Below are positions 9,261-21,947 of a stretch of 33,809 nucleotides of DNA, in pieces (the stretch's first letter is position 1; each line of letters opens with the position of its first letter). The DNA lies in IMG/VR virus record IMGVR_UViG_3300027973_000136, positions 1-33,809 of that record. The stretch is one strand, 5' to 3'. This DNA comes from a virus. Position numbers and translations under genes: made by a program. The notes below the pieces were generated by a model that was not told the origin of the DNA, made no database searches, and was given only the letters and a program-made list of their open reading frames with translations.

Positions 9261-9596
9261 TTACTTAGACCCGTCATGCTCAAGGGAGTAATGGTTGCCG
9301 TCTTGGAATCTCCCTCCCCAAGACCCACCCATTGACTCCCACACCTCTCCCAGAGGCTTATGATCCTCTGTTCCTTGCAAAAATATCCCATCCTTAAAAA
9401 GGTTAAGGTCAACAGCTAGTCGAATCTTGTGAGTTGATTTAGAGTGGCCGTAACCCATCTTCATTCCCAATGCTCCGTGTAATCGCGGATCCCTGTACGC
9501 ATCCCCAAAGGTCAGTTCGTATCCATTGGCGTACGCCCACTGGATAAGATCAGCCACCATCTTTACAAACTTCCTTTGCTTCTGCCCTAGTGTCAT
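9261..9596 (-). CDS. M15-family peptidase, putative endolysin
   Basis: This 111-residue zinc peptidase is of the VanY / L-alanyl-D-glutamate peptidase type and probably cleaves the peptidoglycan peptide stem at lysis. The zinc motif SKSTHKIRLAVDLNLF supplies His56 and Asp63. The C-terminal DGNHYSLEH supplies Asp99, His102 and the Glu106/His107 pair. It has no signal peptide or transmembrane segment, so it would need a holin or other export route; no clear holin was found. It is the last gene of the leftward unit, overlapping the 605-residue internal protein by four bases. It could instead be a virion-associated wall hydrolase, because it follows ejection-protein genes. Confidence 0.8.
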   Translation of the reverse strand: MTLGQKQRKFVKMVADLIQWAYANGYELTFGDAYRDPRLHGALGMKMGYGHSKSTHKIRLAVDLNLFKDGIFLQGTEDHKPLGEVWESMGGSWGGRFQDGNHYSLEHDGSK

Positions 9597-11410
9597 TGTT
9601 GCGGCTCCTGCGGGTTAATGCTAATTCCGAAGTACTTATCAAGGAAGTACAGACGAGCTTGCGTGTCATCCGAGGGTGCTCGTCTGTCTCCTACCTTGGA
9701 TGCGACCAATGAATCCAAGAAGTTATTCAAACGAATTTCCATTGGCTTGTCCGGGATAACAAAATATCCGGATTCTGGATTCAGTTGTACTGCGGAATCT
9801 CCGAACTTCTCTTGAATTTTCCTTGCGTACGATTGAGCAATCTCTTCTGCTTTCGAGTGCAATCCGCTAGCAATTAGGGCAGCCTTACCGGGGCTTTCTT
9901 GTTCAGCAGCTCGGAAATTAGTAGGAAAGTTCGTACGTTCCAATGCTTCCATAAAACGCTTACGGTCTTCTCCGCTAAATACAATATTATCCACACCGTA
10001 GGTAGCTGTAAGCCATGTATCCCCAAATACCTTTGTATTGCTGGGCACAACAGAAGTAGGATTCCTATCCGTAAGAGAAGACAAAGCTACGTTTCTCTGC
10101 GCGTTCTGGCGCTCTTCTCCAAGTTGCTCCATAGTGATACTTCCTGAGTACAGATTAGCAGCATCCCTTAATGCTGTTTCTACGCCACCAGTAAGTTTTG
10201 CAACAAGAGGCCCATTCAATGCAAAACTTCTTCCTATCCCCTCTAGTAGTGCTGGCGATATATTCTTAAGCACTGCCATTTCTGGCATTGTCTTGTACAA
10301 GTTAACTTGTGCATTTTGTTCAAAACTCTTAAGCGCATCCGCGTTTCTCTGCATTTCAGACAAATCCCCTTTGAAATAATCCGAAATGGATTTCCGGATT
10401 CTCTCAACTTCTGCAAAAGCAGCTTGGCGTTGTGAATTGAATTCAGCACTAGTGCCGCCTGCACTCATTGCAAGATTGTTAAAATCAGTGCCCATCTGAG
10501 CAGTCGTTGTAGCAAAGGCTGTATTAAGTTGGCTTTGGAGTTGTTCCGGAGTAACCTCTCCCCTTCGCATAGAATCCAAAGAACTAATAAACAAATAATT
10601 CAAACCATTTGTGTACTTATCAGTAACAATTGTAGCACCCTTCCTTTCAAGACCTATTCTTGTTTTCTCTTCAAATGCAATATTCGCCCCTAAACTAGCC
10701 GCCGCTGCTCCTTGTTCAGAAGCTATTGTCCTTCTAAGACTGCGTTCATCAGACATCATTTGCCTAGTCATGTTGTACTCATCCGTGAGCCTCTTATGAT
10801 CGGATGCAAACAAAGAATAACTCATAAGTTGCTGGTCATTCATCATTTCAAACGGCATATCAAAAGGCGCTCCGGTATTCTTGAACATACCGTACGCACT
10901 GCTAATAAGTTTTTCTCTGCTTGTTTTTTCCGCTTTTGCAGCTTCGGAAGCAGCAGCTTCAGCCATATCCATGAACTGAAGTGTAGCATCGTACCCTCCG
11001 AGAACTTCTTGGGCTACTTGCTTGTATATAGAAGCAAACATGGGGTTAGCTCCTGCTTTTTCCCGAGTCAACTTCTCTGCAAGAAGATTAGTACGCGTGC
11101 GGGCACCAACACCCCCTTGTGCAGTAACTTGTTTTGCTCGTTCAATTGCGTCCTTGAACTCTTGGGTATCCGCAGGCTGGGCTTCAACTTTGCTGGCAAA
11201 TTGTTTGCCAATCTCTTGTTGGACAGCTTGGTCTATTTCGCCTCGAAATTCTCTACCTTTAAAGGCAGCAGCAAGGCCGTAGCCTTGTTCTGTCGCACTT
11301 CCTGCAACTCGCAACAGGGTTTCTCCTGAACGATCCGATGCTCCCTCTTGGGGGTTAATAAAATTCTGCGTGTTGTACGTTCCAGTTGCATTTGAGCCAA
11401 ATTCAGCCAT
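9593..11410 (-). CDS. Internal virion / ejection protein (605 aa)
   Basis: This large soluble protein is rich in Ala, Gln, Glu and Ser, mostly helical, and has no recognisable enzyme motif. The N-terminal 25 residues are Asn/Gly/Thr-rich, with GSNATGTYNTQNFINP. Long helical stretches follow (for example an Ala/Glu-rich segment near 150-165). Composition and position, just after the giant ejection protein, match T7 gp15-type internal core proteins, but the order is swapped relative to T7 (gp15 before gp16). GGAGAA six bases before ATG supports the start. The gene begins two bases after the 1549-codon gene ends, so the two products are probably made together. Confidence 0.6.
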   Translation of the reverse strand: MAEFGSNATGTYNTQNFINPQEGASDRSGETLLRVAGSATEQGYGLAAAFKGREFRGEIDQAVQQEIGKQFASKVEAQPADTQEFKDAIERAKQVTAQGGVGARTRTNLLAEKLTREKAGANPMFASIYKQVAQEVLGGYDATLQFMDMAEAAASEAAKAEKTSREKLISSAYGMFKNTGAPFDMPFEMMNDQQLMSYSLFASDHKRLTDEYNMTRQMMSDERSLRRTIASEQGAAAASLGANIAFEEKTRIGLERKGATIVTDKYTNGLNYLFISSLDSMRRGEVTPEQLQSQLNTAFATTTAQMGTDFNNLAMSAGGTSAEFNSQRQAAFAEVERIRKSISDYFKGDLSEMQRNADALKSFEQNAQVNLYKTMPEMAVLKNISPALLEGIGRSFALNGPLVAKLTGGVETALRDAANLYSGSITMEQLGEERQNAQRNVALSSLTDRNPTSVVPSNTKVFGDTWLTATYGVDNIVFSGEDRKRFMEALERTNFPTNFRAAEQESPGKAALIASGLHSKAEEIAQSYARKIQEKFGDSAVQLNPESGYFVIPDKPMEIRLNNFLDSLVASKVGDRRAPSDDTQARLYFLDKYFGISINPQEPQQ

Positions 11411-16508: not shown

Positions 16509-16799
16509 TTAATGCACCTCAAATTTAGATAGGGGATAGCATTCGCCATCCCGAGTGTAGATAGCTTTATCTACTGGATAAAAACCCATCATTGACAAAA
16601 ACTTTTTTTGTTTTGCATTCATACAAGGAGCGTACAAAGGCTCCTTTAGATCCTGCTGGATGCGGCAAATAGCACCAAGAAGATGCTTATAAATAGTGTG
16701 CGTCCACTTTTTTACTGTACAGTGAATAATAACTTCCTGAGTAGGAACCCTATCCGCAACTATGCGCCAGTACAGATTCTCATCCAGCACAGTCATCAT
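16509..16799 (-). CDS. gp13-like protein, acetyltransferase-like fold
   Basis: This 96-residue protein lies between tail and core genes, where T7 has gp13. The C-terminal half (CMNAKQKKFLSMMGFYPVD, then YTRDGECYPL) follows the GNAT motif-B pattern, an Asn followed by a helix, then F-L-x-x-x-G-F and an edge strand. T7 gp13 has a comparable fragment in which a Phe-Leu helix precedes Gly and a YTRDG-like strand. Catalysis is not implied, since the acetyl-CoA loop is not obvious. It probably acts in virion assembly. The start overlaps the stop of the tail fragment gene (ATGATG; either ATG could serve). Confidence 0.55.
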   Translation of the reverse strand: MMTVLDENLYWRIVADRVPTQEVIIHCTVKKWTHTIYKHLLGAICRIQQDLKEPLYAPCMNAKQKKFLSMMGFYPVDKAIYTRDGECYPLSKFEVH

Positions 16800-17083
16800 A
16801 CTTCACGATTCCATCCGAGTTCTACGCTCCAGCCAAGTAGCTTGCAGTCCTTTCCGGGTTCTGTCCTAAATCTGAAAGACAGAGCGCGGCCCTTACCACG
16901 TATTTTGTTACGGGTAGTGATTACGGACATACCATCACTGAGACTAGTATTAGTTTCTTCAATGAACAAAGGTTGCCTAAAACGGTAGCCTTGGAACTCA
17001 TCTCCCCAACGACCAGAGTCCTCAAGGGTTGTCCATTCCCACCGAGCTTGTACAAGGCATGATGATTCGTTTTGTAGTGCCAT
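16796..17083 (-). CDS. Detached C-terminal domain of tail tube B / nozzle protein
   Basis: This 95-residue protein starts at ATG 17083, one base after the LamG gene's stop; an in-frame TTG at 17098 is less likely. It has the order NESSCLVQARWEW, then GRWGDEFQGYRFRQP, then VITTRNKIRGKGRALSFRF and EPGKDCKLLGW. From memory this is how the C-terminus of podophage gp12-like/stabilisation proteins reads. Here that domain is a separate gene. The body of the protein (19629-21494) lies 2.5 kb upstream, with two LamG genes between. No ribosome site precedes it, so it probably relies on coupling or, possibly, recoding. Confidence 0.6.
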   Translation of the reverse strand: MALQNESSCLVQARWEWTTLEDSGRWGDEFQGYRFRQPLFIEETNTSLSDGMSVITTRNKIRGKGRALSFRFRTEPGKDCKLLGWSVELGWNREV

Positions 17084-17084
17084 A

Positions 17085-17996
17085 TTAAGGATTTTCAAAC
17101 CTTGTAGTTATTGGAGCAAAATTACTTTTGTACCTAGCGATATTCTTTGTAAAGCGGACTTCATCAATTGCGCCATTCCATATCTTACGCCTCAGTGTAC
17201 CGTTTCTCTGACCACCAATTACAATTCTTCCGAGATCGCCAGTAATTAGTCCTGCTTGTAGGAGAGTATTCGTTTCTTTTATTCCATTTACAAACAGACT
17301 TATTGTCCCGCTTATTTCTCGAACACAAGCTAAATGCGTCCAAAGGCTTGTACTCAATGTGGTAGCTGTATTCAGAGTAAAATATTGGGTTGAAAACTCA
17401 TTAGCAACGATTGCTTGCGCTTGTCCTTCGGAATTCATTCCCACTTCAACGTAAAAACCAGTTACAGTAACCTTCTCAGAAAAGCCAAAAGCTACTGCTT
17501 TTTTGTACCCATCGGGTTTAACAAAACCTTCCATAGTAAATTCTGTATTAGCGTCAAATTGAGCATAGACACCCGAGTTTGGGCCAAGATCGTTTGGAAC
17601 AACTACGATCATTCCCCCTTCTCCGTATGAATCAGCATGTCCTGTGCATTGGAAATAACCCGTAGCAAATAGTTCACTAGAAAATTTACCAGAGGATCCG
17701 CCAACTGTTACTGTTGCTGTCAAGGATGTCTCGGTTATCCATTGAATTCCAAAAAGTCTCCTATACAAGGATGCATCAGAAAGTTGTTTTGAATAAATTC
17801 CGTTAGCCATGCTGACACTGATATCTTCATCGAAGTGCGCTAGAAGAATTACTTCTCCTCCGTATGAATCCTCTTCCGGAATAACTGGAAGAGGGCTCCA
17901 CGGATCTATTGCAGGCTCAGGGCTAGTAGTCTCGGTTCTCCCGAAATGAATAATAAGCCAAGGGGAATACTTTTGTCTGGATGCACCTATTCTCAT
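17085..17996 (-). CDS. LamG/concanavalin-like tail adhesin (303 aa)
   Basis: After a 47-residue N-terminal extension, a single LamG-type jelly-roll domain spans about 48-300. It shows VILLAHFDE, FTMEGFVKP, WTHLACVREISGTISLFVNG and the closing GAIDEVRFTKNIARYKSNF. Such domains bind glycans and are common in receptor-binding phage appendages. Residues 11-23 (SPWLIIHFGRTET) closely match a segment at the start of the other LamG gene. GAGAG ten bases ahead gives a weak ribosome site. The gene starts ten bases after the previous stop. Likely role: a tail-attached adhesin. Confidence 0.75.
   Translation of the reverse strand: MRIGASRQKYSPWLIIHFGRTETTSPEPAIDPWSPLPVIPEEDSYGGEVILLAHFDEDISVSMANGIYSKQLSDASLYRRLFGIQWITETSLTATVTVGGSSGKFSSELFATGYFQCTGHADSYGEGGMIVVVPNDLGPNSGVYAQFDANTEFTMEGFVKPDGYKKAVAFGFSEKVTVTGFYVEVGMNSEGQAQAIVANEFSTQYFTLNTATTLSTSLWTHLACVREISGTISLFVNGIKETNTLLQAGLITGDLGRIVIGGQRNGTLRRKIWNGAIDEVRFTKNIARYKSNFAPITTRFENP
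17928..17966 (-). repeat. Second copy of the SP-L-I-F-RTET segment
   Basis: This stretch encodes SPWLIIHFGRTET, residues 11-23 of the 303-residue LamG protein. It matches SPYLTIYFTRTET of the upstream LamG protein at 9 of 13 positions, and in both cases it directly precedes a LamG domain. It is probably a duplicated tail-nozzle-derived anchor strand. Confidence 0.6.
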
Positions 17997-18006
17997 ATTA
18001 CTCTCG

Positions 18007-19632
18007 TTAACTCAAAGGGAAACTGGCTGTAGGCGGAGTAAAGTTAGCTGTGTACCTAGCTACTCCAGTAGTGACCCTGAAATCATTTATGTTTCCGTTG
18101 AATGTATACCCTGATCCGTAATACAACCCGACGTTAATTCCGTTACCGCCATAGTTGGTTGTGTCAGTTAAAGAGGCACCTTGTGCTACTCCATTTACAT
18201 ACAGCGTTAACAAACTACTATTGCGAACTAAAGCAACGTGGTACCAAGTATTCGTTGTTGGCGTATAGCTTCTAGTATAATTAGCGTTTCCAGAATAAAT
18301 CTGAAAATCCGTTCCATCGTACCCAACTGCTACTCCTGCGGTAGTGTTAGGCGGTGTTCCCGGATAGACTTGGAACAAACCTCCGTTGGTTAGAGATGCC
18401 CAATTAAACCACCCTTCTATAGTAAAATTTCCAGTACCAAAATTGACAGAACCAACAGGGGCGTACAGCCAATCCGTAGTACCATCAAATAATCCACTGG
18501 AGCCTCCCCACTTATACTTAGCAGGAGAAATAGACGAGTTTCCATTAACAGTTATTGAATTGGATAGTGAGCTATAATCAATAAAGTTAGTAGATCCACT
18601 TACCCCATTCATAGGCATTAACAAAGATACGCTACTAAAATACGTATCTGATTCGCAAGCTACATCAGGGTATTCTACTACAGGGACAGTGAAGTTGCTT
18701 GTGTACCTAGCGACATTTGTAGTGATTCGTAAGTCATCTATGTATCCAATGTACTGCGAGTTAATCGCGTTCCCGCTATCGGAATCTCCTGCTCCCACTA
18801 TTAAGCCGTAATTAGTTTTTGTTGTAGTTAAGCCAATAAGGCTACTTGCGTAAATAGCACTTGGTGTTTGAAAGGAAGAAGCCTGTTCTGTACCATTAAC
18901 AAAGATTTTTGGAACTCCGCTACTAATGACAATAGCAATATGGTACCAAACGGATGTCGATGTTAATACAGCAGAGTTAGTTTGGAACTGTGCAAACCAT
19001 GCAGTTCCCGCACTGCTATTTTTAGATGCAGTAAAGCCTATGTACCCACTATTTTGAGTGTATACATTCCAACCTCCTATACCATCTCCTCCACTTCCCG
19101 GTAGGGCATGTCCTGCAAAAACCATATACGTTGAATTTATGGCAGACTTTTTAGTGTAGAACTCTATAGTAAAATCAGTCGAAGAAGAGATTGTCCCTAA
19201 ATCGTATGTAGGATTTCTTCCACTAGGATAATTGGGTTTTACGTACCCAGAGCCATCTAAATACAAGGATGCTGTGCCAAAGTATTTTTCTGCCGTAACC
19301 AACTTAGCAGTACTGAAGGTTGATATTATAGTATCGCCTGCTGCATTGTCAGTGTACGGCCCTGTTTGATTATTAGTGCCATTGAAGTGGCACAAGAAAA
19401 CTGTGTTATTCCAGTATTGGTCACAACTTGCTGATGCCGTTGCCGTAGTAGTAGCCGTCACCGTTACAGTAGCAGTTGAAGAGCCTTCGTCACTTATAGT
19501 CTCTGTTCTAGTAAAATAGATAGTCAAGTACGGCGACATCTTGTACCGAGAAGGAGAGATATAGCTGGATTGGTTCTCTTCCTGATCTTTAGAACCTTTA
19601 TTCCAAGACTTTACTCTTTGAACAGGCTTCAC
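18007..19632 (-). CDS. Two-domain LamG tail adhesin (541 aa)
   Basis: The frame starts at GTG 19632, overlapping the tail tube B stop (GTGA), and is open 16 codons further up without a better start. The N-terminus carries SPYLTIYFTRTET at 33-45, then a Thr/Ala-rich linker (TATVTVTATTTATAS). Two LamG domains follow, about 77-315 and 334-537. Each has the F-x-G start, W-Y-H-x-A-x-V core strand, VNG hairpin and closing ARYTSNF/ARYTANF. A CES motif lies between them. Probably a carbohydrate-binding appendage attached to the tail nozzle. The ribosome site is weak, so coupling to the upstream gene is likely. Confidence 0.75.
   Translation of the reverse strand: MKPVQRVKSWNKGSKDQEENQSSYISPSRYKMSPYLTIYFTRTETISDEGSSTATVTVTATTTATASASCDQYWNNTVFLCHFNGTNNQTGPYTDNAAGDTIISTFSTAKLVTAEKYFGTASLYLDGSGYVKPNYPSGRNPTYDLGTISSSTDFTIEFYTKKSAINSTYMVFAGHALPGSGGDGIGGWNVYTQNSGYIGFTASKNSSAGTAWFAQFQTNSAVLTSTSVWYHIAIVISSGVPKIFVNGTEQASSFQTPSAIYASSLIGLTTTKTNYGLIVGAGDSDSGNAINSQYIGYIDDLRITTNVARYTSNFTVPVVEYPDVACESDTYFSSVSLLMPMNGVSGSTNFIDYSSLSNSITVNGNSSISPAKYKWGGSSGLFDGTTDWLYAPVGSVNFGTGNFTIEGWFNWASLTNGGLFQVYPGTPPNTTAGVAVGYDGTDFQIYSGNANYTRSYTPTTNTWYHVALVRNSSLLTLYVNGVAQGASLTDTTNYGGNGINVGLYYGSGYTFNGNINDFRVTTGVARYTANFTPPTASFPLS
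19498..19536 (-). repeat. First copy of the SP-L-I-F-RTET segment
   Basis: This stretch encodes SPYLTIYFTRTET near the N-terminus of the two-domain LamG protein, just downstream of the tail tube B body. A related copy lies at 17928-17966. The two are similar in protein but differ in bases, so the duplication is not recent. Confidence 0.6.
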
Positions 19633-21494
19633 AGAATGTACCCAGTGATCAAGTAAGCTGCTGCATCCACAGAAGACCAATCTTCAAAGTTGGTATTGTT
19701 ATAGTAGTACAGGGACATTGTGTACGTATGCGAAGCAGCTTCAGCTAGTCCTGTGTACCTGAAGTCTGAATTAACAGAGTTACGGTACGCCACAGGAGTG
19801 TTCAAGTACCCTGTCAGTCGAGGAGTCGCAGTAGAACTAGCCGAGAGATCATAGAACTTAAAGCGGCTCCACGCAGGCATGGAGAGATCCAGAATCAGTT
19901 CGTGCGTGAACTTCTGCGGAGCTTGATCGTTGTACTCTCTTTGATACAACCAACGGCAGCGGTACGCTGCATCGTCATAGATACCCACTGCATTATTCTT
20001 GCAGTTGTACGGAATGGAGTTATACAGTCTTTGTATCGTGTACTCAGTCAAGGATTGGAATTCAATACCCGTCTGACCCACACCCAAGGCAAAGATTCCG
20101 TTTCGACTCCAGTAGATAACCGCATCTGGAGTTACGACAATACTGTCTACAGAAAGAGCGCCATTGTTCGTAAGGAATTTAGATTGGTACTCCGTAGCCG
20201 TAAAGCCACGATCACCGCCGGCAATAGCCCATACACCGTTGTCTGCAAAGACAAGAAGCTCGCTCTTGAAAGGAACAAGTGCTTTGATATTGACAGCATC
20301 CGGAAGCTGAATGTAGCCACCATCGGTATCAATCAGATCAGAAATATCTTCAGCGGTAGGATCCGCTTCTTGGTAGCACTTCCCTAAGTCTTGCACTGAG
20401 TCCACTAGTTTGGAGAACAGCACGAACGTACCAACGTGCGGACTCTTAGAATCCCCTCCAGTCTCCCCAGCAGAACACGCATAAAAGATGCGACCAGCAT
20501 AGGCTGCAATGCTCTTAATGCCTCCTGTGGATTGATCCGTGGGAATAGAAGTCTTGTAGTTCCTGCGAGCAGACCAACCGGAAGCAAGATCCTCATCGTA
20601 AGTATCCTTACGGCCTTGACTGCGATCAAAGAGATCAATGATGTAGTGCCCGTTAGCAGCAGGCGTGTTACCGGATGCAATATTCTTTAGGGCATGAGGA
20701 TAGAACGCTCTACGGCCATTGGTGAGCATTGTGAGAGCGGTGTACAGAATATCCGCATTGCTGGGGTACACACCAAGGGATGTCTTGGTGCGCTCAACAG
20801 GATCCTCTACAGCGCCATTATTCATGGTGTTAGGATTGTCCGGATCAGAAGAACAGAAGAATTCTGGCATCCATCCTTGGTTATACAGATTGTATGCGTG
20901 CAAATCCGTCAATGTACTGGTGCGTTCATCCGTAGCAAAGCCATCATCCACTCCCCAAAAATCTCTGACTTCCAGACGTACTTGCGAAAGAGAGTACGAA
21001 ACAGAGGATACGTACTCAACAACTCGGAGTTGCTGATCCCCTACTGCAACAATCAAGTTGCCTTGAATACTGGAAAAAGAAAACTTACTTACCACTGTTG
21101 CTGTAAGAGTAATAGCAGTTCCGAAATACGGATTGCTAACACTATCCGAAGAGTTAGCATTAAAAAAGTGCAGCCTATTACCGTACTGGTAAACAAAAAT
21201 ATTCCTACTAGGATTCTCTCCAGCATTGCTCCAAAGATAACTCATCGAAGCGTAGCAAGTGTTGGATACAGTGCTGCTGCCGGATACGCTTACGGATACG
21301 TGCCCGAGTTCCCGGATTCCTGCTCCCGTCTTGCCAAGACCTAGCCTACGGCCACGGGAACCATCTCTATCAAGAACAAAGTTCTCTTCATCAACGGAAG
21401 CTCCTTCCGGAAAATTAACAGGAGAAGCTTCAGTAATGAGGCCCGCTACCCAGTTAGTTGCTTCAACTGTTGTTTTTTGACGAAGTGGCCGCAC
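19629..21494 (-). CDS. Tail tube protein B / tail nozzle body (T7 gp12-like)
   Basis: This 621-residue protein is beta-rich. Its N-terminus (NWVAGLITEASPVNFPEGAS, then DRDGSRGRRLGLG) is typical of gp12/stabilisation proteins that continue the portal channel through the tail. A central propeller-like region includes ELLVFADNGVWAIAGG and YWSRNGIFALGVGQTG. It ends abruptly at AYLITGYIL, without the RG-G-A-L / EPGKD-LLGW C-terminal domain expected from memory; that domain occurs as a separate gene at 16796-17083. The start is GTG 21494, overlapping the preceding gene by 32 bases, with a weak purine site. The stop overlaps the LamG gene's GTG. Confidence 0.8.
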   Translation of the reverse strand: MRPLRQKTTVEATNWVAGLITEASPVNFPEGASVDEENFVLDRDGSRGRRLGLGKTGAGIRELGHVSVSVSGSSTVSNTCYASMSYLWSNAGENPSRNIFVYQYGNRLHFFNANSSDSVSNPYFGTAITLTATVVSKFSFSSIQGNLIVAVGDQQLRVVEYVSSVSYSLSQVRLEVRDFWGVDDGFATDERTSTLTDLHAYNLYNQGWMPEFFCSSDPDNPNTMNNGAVEDPVERTKTSLGVYPSNADILYTALTMLTNGRRAFYPHALKNIASGNTPAANGHYIIDLFDRSQGRKDTYDEDLASGWSARRNYKTSIPTDQSTGGIKSIAAYAGRIFYACSAGETGGDSKSPHVGTFVLFSKLVDSVQDLGKCYQEADPTAEDISDLIDTDGGYIQLPDAVNIKALVPFKSELLVFADNGVWAIAGGDRGFTATEYQSKFLTNNGALSVDSIVVTPDAVIYWSRNGIFALGVGQTGIEFQSLTEYTIQRLYNSIPYNCKNNAVGIYDDAAYRCRWLYQREYNDQAPQKFTHELILDLSMPAWSRFKFYDLSASSTATPRLTGYLNTPVAYRNSVNSDFRYTGLAEAASHTYTMSLYYYNNTNFEDWSSVDAAAYLITGYIL

Positions 21495-21683: not shown

Positions 21684-21947
21684 TTAGCAGTTCCACGCTC
21701 TCAAAGATTTATTGATCCTGCTATTAGGATCATTCTTTGTTTTCTCGCTAGTCAGTTTCTCTTTCATTCCTTGCATACGAGAACAGAATGATTTACGCCT
21801 GCCAGCATCCTTCTTCGTCTTAGGGTTAGGAGCAGGAGCTTTTAGATTCCCTCCCGTCTCCCTGTTGTAAGCTGCGCGGCCCTTAGCATTAAGTCCGCCT
21901 TTCGGATTCTTACCTTCTTTTCGTTGCCATGCAGGTGATTTAGCCAT
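21684..21947 (-). CDS. DUF6321-like small basic protein
   Basis: This 87-residue protein opens with AWQRKEGKNPKGGLNAKGRAA and later has GRRKSFCSRMQGM and a terminal LRAWNC. From memory this arrangement (W-x-R-K-E-G-K-N-P-x-G-G-L-N, then R-R-K-S-F-C-x-R-M, then L-R-x-W-x-C) defines a small phage family, DUF6321, found next to structural genes. It is strongly basic, with two conserved cysteines. The function is not known; DNA binding or a virion role is possible. Its ATG overlaps the stop of tail tube A (TAATG). Confidence 0.7.
   Translation of the reverse strand: MAKSPAWQRKEGKNPKGGLNAKGRAAYNRETGGNLKAPAPNPKTKKDAGRRKSFCSRMQGMKEKLTSEKTKNDPNSRINKSLRAWNC

Follow-up and report, generated by a model that had tools for sequence, protein, structure and literature searches.

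The locus analyzed here raises the question of why the tail-nozzle gene of a Zobellviridae-like podovirus is cut into two pieces separated by two LamG genes, and how the products of such genes could come together in one virion. The window (the whole stretch of DNA analyzed, IMG/VR record IMGVR_UViG_3300027973_000136) was 33,809 nucleotides in length.

Gene layout and intact relatives of the split nozzle

The nozzle genes were located in a late operon, between the adaptor and the internal virion genes. The coordinates, strand, and junctions of four ORFs reported in the initial annotation were all reproduced; two short segments, which we call tether strands, were added to them:

19629..21494, minus strand: nozzle body, 621 aa, GTG start; phrog_8094 profile positions 3–644 of 769
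18007..19632, minus strand: LamG gene 1, putative adhesin, 541 aa, GTG start; PF13385, two copies
19501..19554, minus strand: putative tether strand of gene 1, PSRYKMSPYLTIYFTRTE; 37.4 bits with a profile of 57 intact nozzles
17085..17996, minus strand: LamG gene 2, putative adhesin, 303 aa; PF13385, one domain
17931..17984, minus strand: putative tether strand of gene 2, ASRQKYSPWLIIHFGRTE; 32.0 bits with the same profile of 57 intact nozzles
16796..17083, minus strand: C-terminal platform piece of the nozzle as an ORF of its own, 95 aa; phrog_8094 profile positions 676–765 of 769

The body comprised the N-terminal platform strands, the beta-propeller, and the fiber-dock region; its last residues were AYLITGYIL, and it stopped just ahead of a platform strand that is missing from it. 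Gene 1 encoded an N-terminal nozzle-strand tether followed by two LamG domains, and gene 2 encoded such a tether followed by one LamG domain; PF13385 (Laminin_G_3) scored 83 and 60 bits, at a curated cut-off of 27.6. The GTG start of gene 1 lay within a GTGA overlap with the body stop, the gap between genes 1 and 2 was 10 bases, and that between gene 2 and the C-terminal ORF was 1 base. The G+C content of the adhesin genes (34–45%) was lower than that of the body and the C-terminal piece (44–49%), which suggests their acquisition.

Both the body (E 5.7e-137) and the 95-aa ORF (E 1.4e-29) matched PHROG 8094, “tail appendage”, and covered consecutive parts of one 769-column profile. The 95-aa ORF, initially recognized by eye as the C-terminal domain of the family, thus matches the same profile as the body, next part along. 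The alignment of the two proteins with full-length homologues, which had been proposed as a check, gave consecutive profile parts with a hole of about 20 residues between them.

Since the contig is metagenome-derived, we also considered whether the split reflects an error of sequencing or assembly, or the remains of a dead gene. The probability of this is negligible, and we excluded it: six contigs from different metagenomes agreed and all their ORFs were intact, and an analogous split was found in isolated, plaque-forming vibriophages. An independent contig (L011) matched the window at 99.98% identity over 5.1 kb; together with four further distinct lineages, it rules out the sequencing error that the initial annotation had named as a way in which its reading could fail.

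All seven contigs of the sister clade (IMG/VR; 68–69% identical to the window body) carried one intact nozzle of about 739–748 aa, and in 78 of the 80 further loci collected with the C-terminal domain, this domain and the body were encoded by one ORF. Among the intact isolates inspected, the one-gene members of the family (CW02, MEP402, Klebsiella VR7901, SIO1, and others) had nozzles of 715–896 aa. A one-piece nozzle was present in every close outgroup and in nearly all relatives, so that the other condition named at the outset, homologues ending naturally at the last residue of the body, proved false for the close relatives. Unusually long nozzles, of about 1110 and 1169 aa, were observed in L048 (L048:5953-9291) and L108; in the former, the fiber-dock/platform part of the body profile matched a second time.

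In the sister contig L016, the nozzle had the same neighbours on both sides and in the same order as in the window, with nothing between the nozzle and the next gene. The gene order of the sister is the same and only the LamG genes are absent, which indicates a clean insertion into the nozzle gene, as had been suggested from the window. No LamG domain was found in the sister records L016 and L017 (47 kb each); LamG was found in every split-clade genome searched. A search of genome contigs gave one intact homologue and no prophage. In a tree, the split clade nested inside the intact relatives. Judged from these sequence comparisons, it is almost certain that the nozzle is split and that its two pieces derive from an ancestral fusion, as the initial annotation had assumed from the layout of the family.

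Two other genes of the window deserve mention. A DUF6321 gene (21684-21947, minus strand) lay directly upstream of the nozzle gene in the window, as it did in L012 and L019; it was near the portal gene in L016 and L024, and has thus moved between close relatives. A 605-aa protein with no PHROG match (9593-11410, minus strand) resembled, over its first ~80 residues, the L016 protein in the corresponding position, which lies at the edge of the L016 locus (30%). It is perhaps another receptor-binding protein with a conserved anchor.

A platform strand carried by the LamG proteins

About 20 residues, corresponding to one beta-strand, were missing from both nozzle pieces. The window body aligned with residues 1–614 of the intact sister nozzle, and the missing segment corresponded to about residues 615–638 of that protein. 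Intact homologues read YLVTGYITGGDSARKKYAPYLTVHCNRTET (TGYITGGDSARKKYAPYLTVHCNRTETNW), a loop, and then PSSCLIQ. Aligning the N-termini of the LamG proteins with intact nozzles first revealed a copy of this strand at the start of both of them: SRYKMSPYLTIYFTRTE / SPSRYKMSPYLTIYFTRTET in gene 1 and SRQKYSPWLIIHFGRTE / GASRQKYSPWLIIHFGRTET in gene 2. A PHROGs scan of the isolated tether peptides gave no match, as expected for 20 residues; a position-specific profile was therefore needed and was built from 57 distinct intact nozzles, none of them from the split clade. In a six-frame scan of the window (34,413 windows), the tethers of gene 1 and gene 2 scored highest, and the third score was 8.6 bits. 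The 64 relative loci gave 637,002 six-frame windows, and no score above 12 bits came from anything but an intact nozzle strand or a gene-1 or gene-2 tether. In a MAFFT alignment run without guidance, the strand slices of intact nozzles likewise fell on the starts of gene 2. In gene 1, the strand was preceded by a conserved extension of 23–26 aa (VKP..R.V.SWN), which was absent from gene 2. LamG matches in proteins of cyanophages, Rhizobium phages, and other phages started at or after residue 71 of gene 1, excluding the tether; hence, these matches show no more than the common occurrence of LamG as a module in phages.

The fold was considered on an AlphaFold model of the intact sister nozzle L016 (739 aa, pLDDT 85.9, pTM 0.83), which stands in for the split chains of the window. 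In this model, the duplicated segment formed the beta-strand 626–632, and both breaks, the first after residue 614 and the second between about 639 and 650, fell in loops. Compared with solved podovirus nozzles, the model gave Z values of 24.6 (SU10), 22.4 (VP1), and 18.9 (T7 gp12); the matches with SU10 and T7 gp12 spanned 490–500 residues. The predicted fold of this 69%-identical intact sister is the propeller-plus-platform fold of nozzles. Gene 2 modelled alone gave a poor model (pLDDT 50), with about 36 and no strand in the tether region. Taken together, the sequence and the strand position in the sister model point to an acceptor fold that lacks one strand and to other chains that carry this strand at their N-termini. 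The platform jelly roll of T7 corresponds to the C-terminal part; it is reached from the fiber dock and is in contact with the adaptor (PMC6702177); short tail fibers of SU10 bind a nozzle loop (PMC9509320). A study on V. parahaemolyticus refers in its title to a “novel bacterial receptor that binds tail tubular proteins” (PMC7241545), a title in keeping with a role of this tail region in receptor binding.

The split clade consisted of five distinct lineages: the window, equal to L011 (99.98%); L012; L013; L019, equal to L020; and L024. Three scans (strand pattern, A1, and A2) gave no split-clade contigs beyond those already known. The order of body, gene 1, gene 2, and C-terminal piece was common to the five lineages as far as the contigs reach (that of L013 ends inside gene 2). 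The adhesin parts differed between lineages in domain number and type: gene 1 had two LamG domains in the window and one in L012 and L024, and gave no Pfam match in L019. In L013, gene 1 consisted of a 60-aa tether ORF only, without an adhesin and still coupled to gene 2; such a bare tether is expected if the strand itself is needed. The tether region was 35–96% identical across lineages, and the adhesin parts were down to 22–30% identical in many pairs. Codon changes in the tether of gene 2 between L011 and L012 were all synonymous (6 versus 0 non-synonymous), and those in the tether of gene 1 between L012 and L019 were mostly so (11 versus 3); in comparisons with L024, replacements were about as many as synonymous changes. 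The mostly synonymous changes between close relatives indicate that the tether is held as a protein.

These data bear on an alternative in which the strand copies are recombination landing sites or insertion scars with no role as protein, and the LamG proteins attach elsewhere. Adhesin parts have clearly been exchanged beside a conserved segment, as such sites would require; however, conservation at the amino acid level with many synonymous changes is poorly suited to homologous recombination, the 60-aa tether-only gene of L013 persists intact and coupled, and the segment coincides exactly with the stretch missing from the two nozzle pieces. We consider this alternative improbable. Because the strand missing from the nozzle is found on the adhesins, strand donation is the simplest tether, and comparison of the sequences with the sister model makes it likely that donation of this strand anchors the adhesins. 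The tethering of adhesins between separately made nozzle pieces, suggested by the initial annotation, thereby takes a sharper form: both LamG proteins begin with a strand absent from the two pieces, by which they would dock. The exchange of adhesin domains next to a constant strand is evident from the lineages and lets the tether be read as an exchangeable plug, through which the adhesins, as interchangeable units, probably clip into the tip of the tail.

Proposed assembly of the nozzle from separate chains

The explanation that we favour with reasonable confidence combines a split nozzle with strand-bearing adhesins completing its platform. As seen by comparison with relatives, a one-piece nozzle gene was opened at two loops flanking one platform strand, and this strand was duplicated and fused ahead of two LamG genes lying between the nozzle pieces. 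The four genes are probably made as separate chains via termination-reinitiation, as the conserved GTGA at the junction of the body and gene 1 suggests. The platform of the virion nozzle would be rebuilt from six copies of the body and six of the C-terminal piece, and the protein of gene 1 or gene 2 would donate the strand completing each platform. The donated strand would anchor a LamG adhesin beside the fiber-dock region, where related phages hang their fibers. Separate chains would in this way assemble into one nozzle with the adhesins attached.

The very tight junctions, the invariable GTGA overlap of the body and gene 1, and the open upstream −1 frame would also suit the joining of the pieces during translation by programmed frameshifting or readthrough, in which case the virion nozzle would be a single chain with LamG loops. 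Across the five lineages, however, genes 1 and 2 were spaced by 10, 4, −1, 0, and 1 bases; gene 2 and the C-terminal piece were spaced by 1, 1, 9, and −1 bases in the four lineages reaching this piece. These spacings differ modulo 3 between members, which makes a programmed fusion unlikely. Moreover, every gene had its own ATG or GTG, inspection of the sequence revealed no slippery heptamer in the region of the body stop, and two copies of the strand would be needless in a single chain. Joining in translation is therefore regarded as very improbable.

One finding that stands against assembly by strand donation as set out above is that there are two tethers for one slot per subunit. A platform built from three kinds of chains, with two adhesins competing for one strand slot and one virion bearing both, is a possibility that we put forward tentatively, somewhat short of an even chance; mixed occupancy of the six slots by the proteins of genes 1 and 2 is proposed with slightly more reserve still. 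In a variant within the favoured explanation, rather than an alternative to it, one tether (perhaps that of gene 2) fills every platform slot and the other binds elsewhere, with no mixing. The extension ahead of the strand in gene 1, which gene 2 lacks, is in line with this variant; on the other hand, both copies scored as the same strand, and the bare gene 1 tether of L013 beside an adhesin-bearing gene 2 fits shared use equally well. Occupancy by one tether is accordingly rated as rather unlikely.

Recurrence of nozzle splitting and comparison with known systems

A separate C-terminal gene of 95–99 aa was found in V. breoganii phages 1.139.A and 1.015.O, in VpV262, and in Enterovibrio phage 1.077.O, with C-terminal profile E values, obtained in very small searches, of 7e-19, 5e-18, 6e-22, and 5e-22, respectively. 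Phages 1.034.O and 1.209.O, near-identical to 1.139.A, were also split, and in Enterovibrio phage 1.070.O the C-terminal piece was likewise a separate gene, of 99 aa. The splitting of the nozzle gene itself is already on record for VpV262: in GenBank entry AY095314, ORFP is labelled “similar to Roseophage SIO1 gp27 C-terminal region”. The literature searched contained no account of nozzle-strand tethers.

VpV262 (ORFN, ORFO, and ORFP) and V. breoganii phages 1.139.A, 1.034.O, 1.209.O, and 1.015.O resemble the window in having a separate C-terminal gene with unrelated genes between the pieces, but they have one break only, versus two in the window, and the alignment places their strand on the body. 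Enterovibrio phages 1.077.O and 1.070.O share the separate C-terminal gene with the window; nothing lies between the nozzle genes, as seen in 1.077.O. Judging by alignment, the split bodies of the vibriophages and Enterovibrio phages appear to keep the strand and to be broken at the second loop; the strand profile gave only 2–3 bits in the two V. breoganii body types. With the strand apparently kept on the body, its duplication is no general requirement for splitting, a point that also weighs against the favoured explanation. The genes between the vibriophage nozzle pieces were unrelated and encoded proteins of 250, 359, or 867 aa; these proteins gave no Pfam match where tested and no LamG match, and no duplicated strand was found. 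The VpV262 body (ORFN, L182:180-2915) had an extension of ~200 aa past the strand position, one stretch of which resembles a carbohydrate-binding module by eye.

In an IMG/VR contig (L045:6380-7560), the nozzle gene was split by two genes, one of them encoding LamG (PF13385, E 1.5e-10). As in the window, a LamG gene interrupts the nozzle, but the break lies in another loop (about residues 510–523) and there is no strand duplication; in L045, a nozzle gene has independently come to hold a LamG gene. In Vibrio phages 1.253.O and 1.235.O (L005:3995-6750), the annotation gives the nozzle as two neighbouring genes; the split is close to profile position 187, a site at which the relative L008 carries a large insertion.

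A maximum-likelihood tree was computed for 52 nozzle bodies; four changes are needed to account for the split on it, and the starred branches force at least three of them to be independent. The window clade was one starred clade (100/99), adjoining the intact clade of L014 and L016. Placing of VpV262 and 1.077.O is uncertain because of long branches. By this tree of sequences, the vibriophage split is independent in origin from that of the window clade.

The window pieces belong to the same sequence family as the podovirus nozzles (T7 gp12, P22 gp10, and SU10 gp17; PHROG 8094 in Zobellviridae), and the predicted propeller and C-terminal platform, seen in the sister clade model, are shared with them. 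The nozzles of T7, P22, and SU10 are single chains, whereas the platform of the window would consist of at least three chains if our reading is right. In chaperone-usher pili, donor-strand complementation supplies a chain that lacks a strand with the N-terminal strand of another subunit. Strand donation would be similar here, with no homology between the two systems; in the window, it would serve to anchor adhesins to the tail. The receptor-binding proteins of SU10 join the nozzle by short N-terminal segments, as we propose for the window, but there a loop with three tryptophans is clamped and no strand of the nozzle fold is donated (PMC9509320).

The usual view is that receptor-binding proteins attach to tail parts that are already complete. 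The nozzle of the window, by contrast, appears to have been opened up in such a way that its fold is completed by adhesins. If this is true, an anchor of ~20 residues would be a minimal swappable one, and new adhesins could be adopted by fusion to that plug. It would provide a route for a conserved channel protein to take up receptor-binding modules and, possibly, would give virions with mixed adhesins, i.e., two receptor-binding proteins around a six-fold nozzle. Strand donation also suggests why nozzle genes have split repeatedly, with at least three origins, in this phage family.
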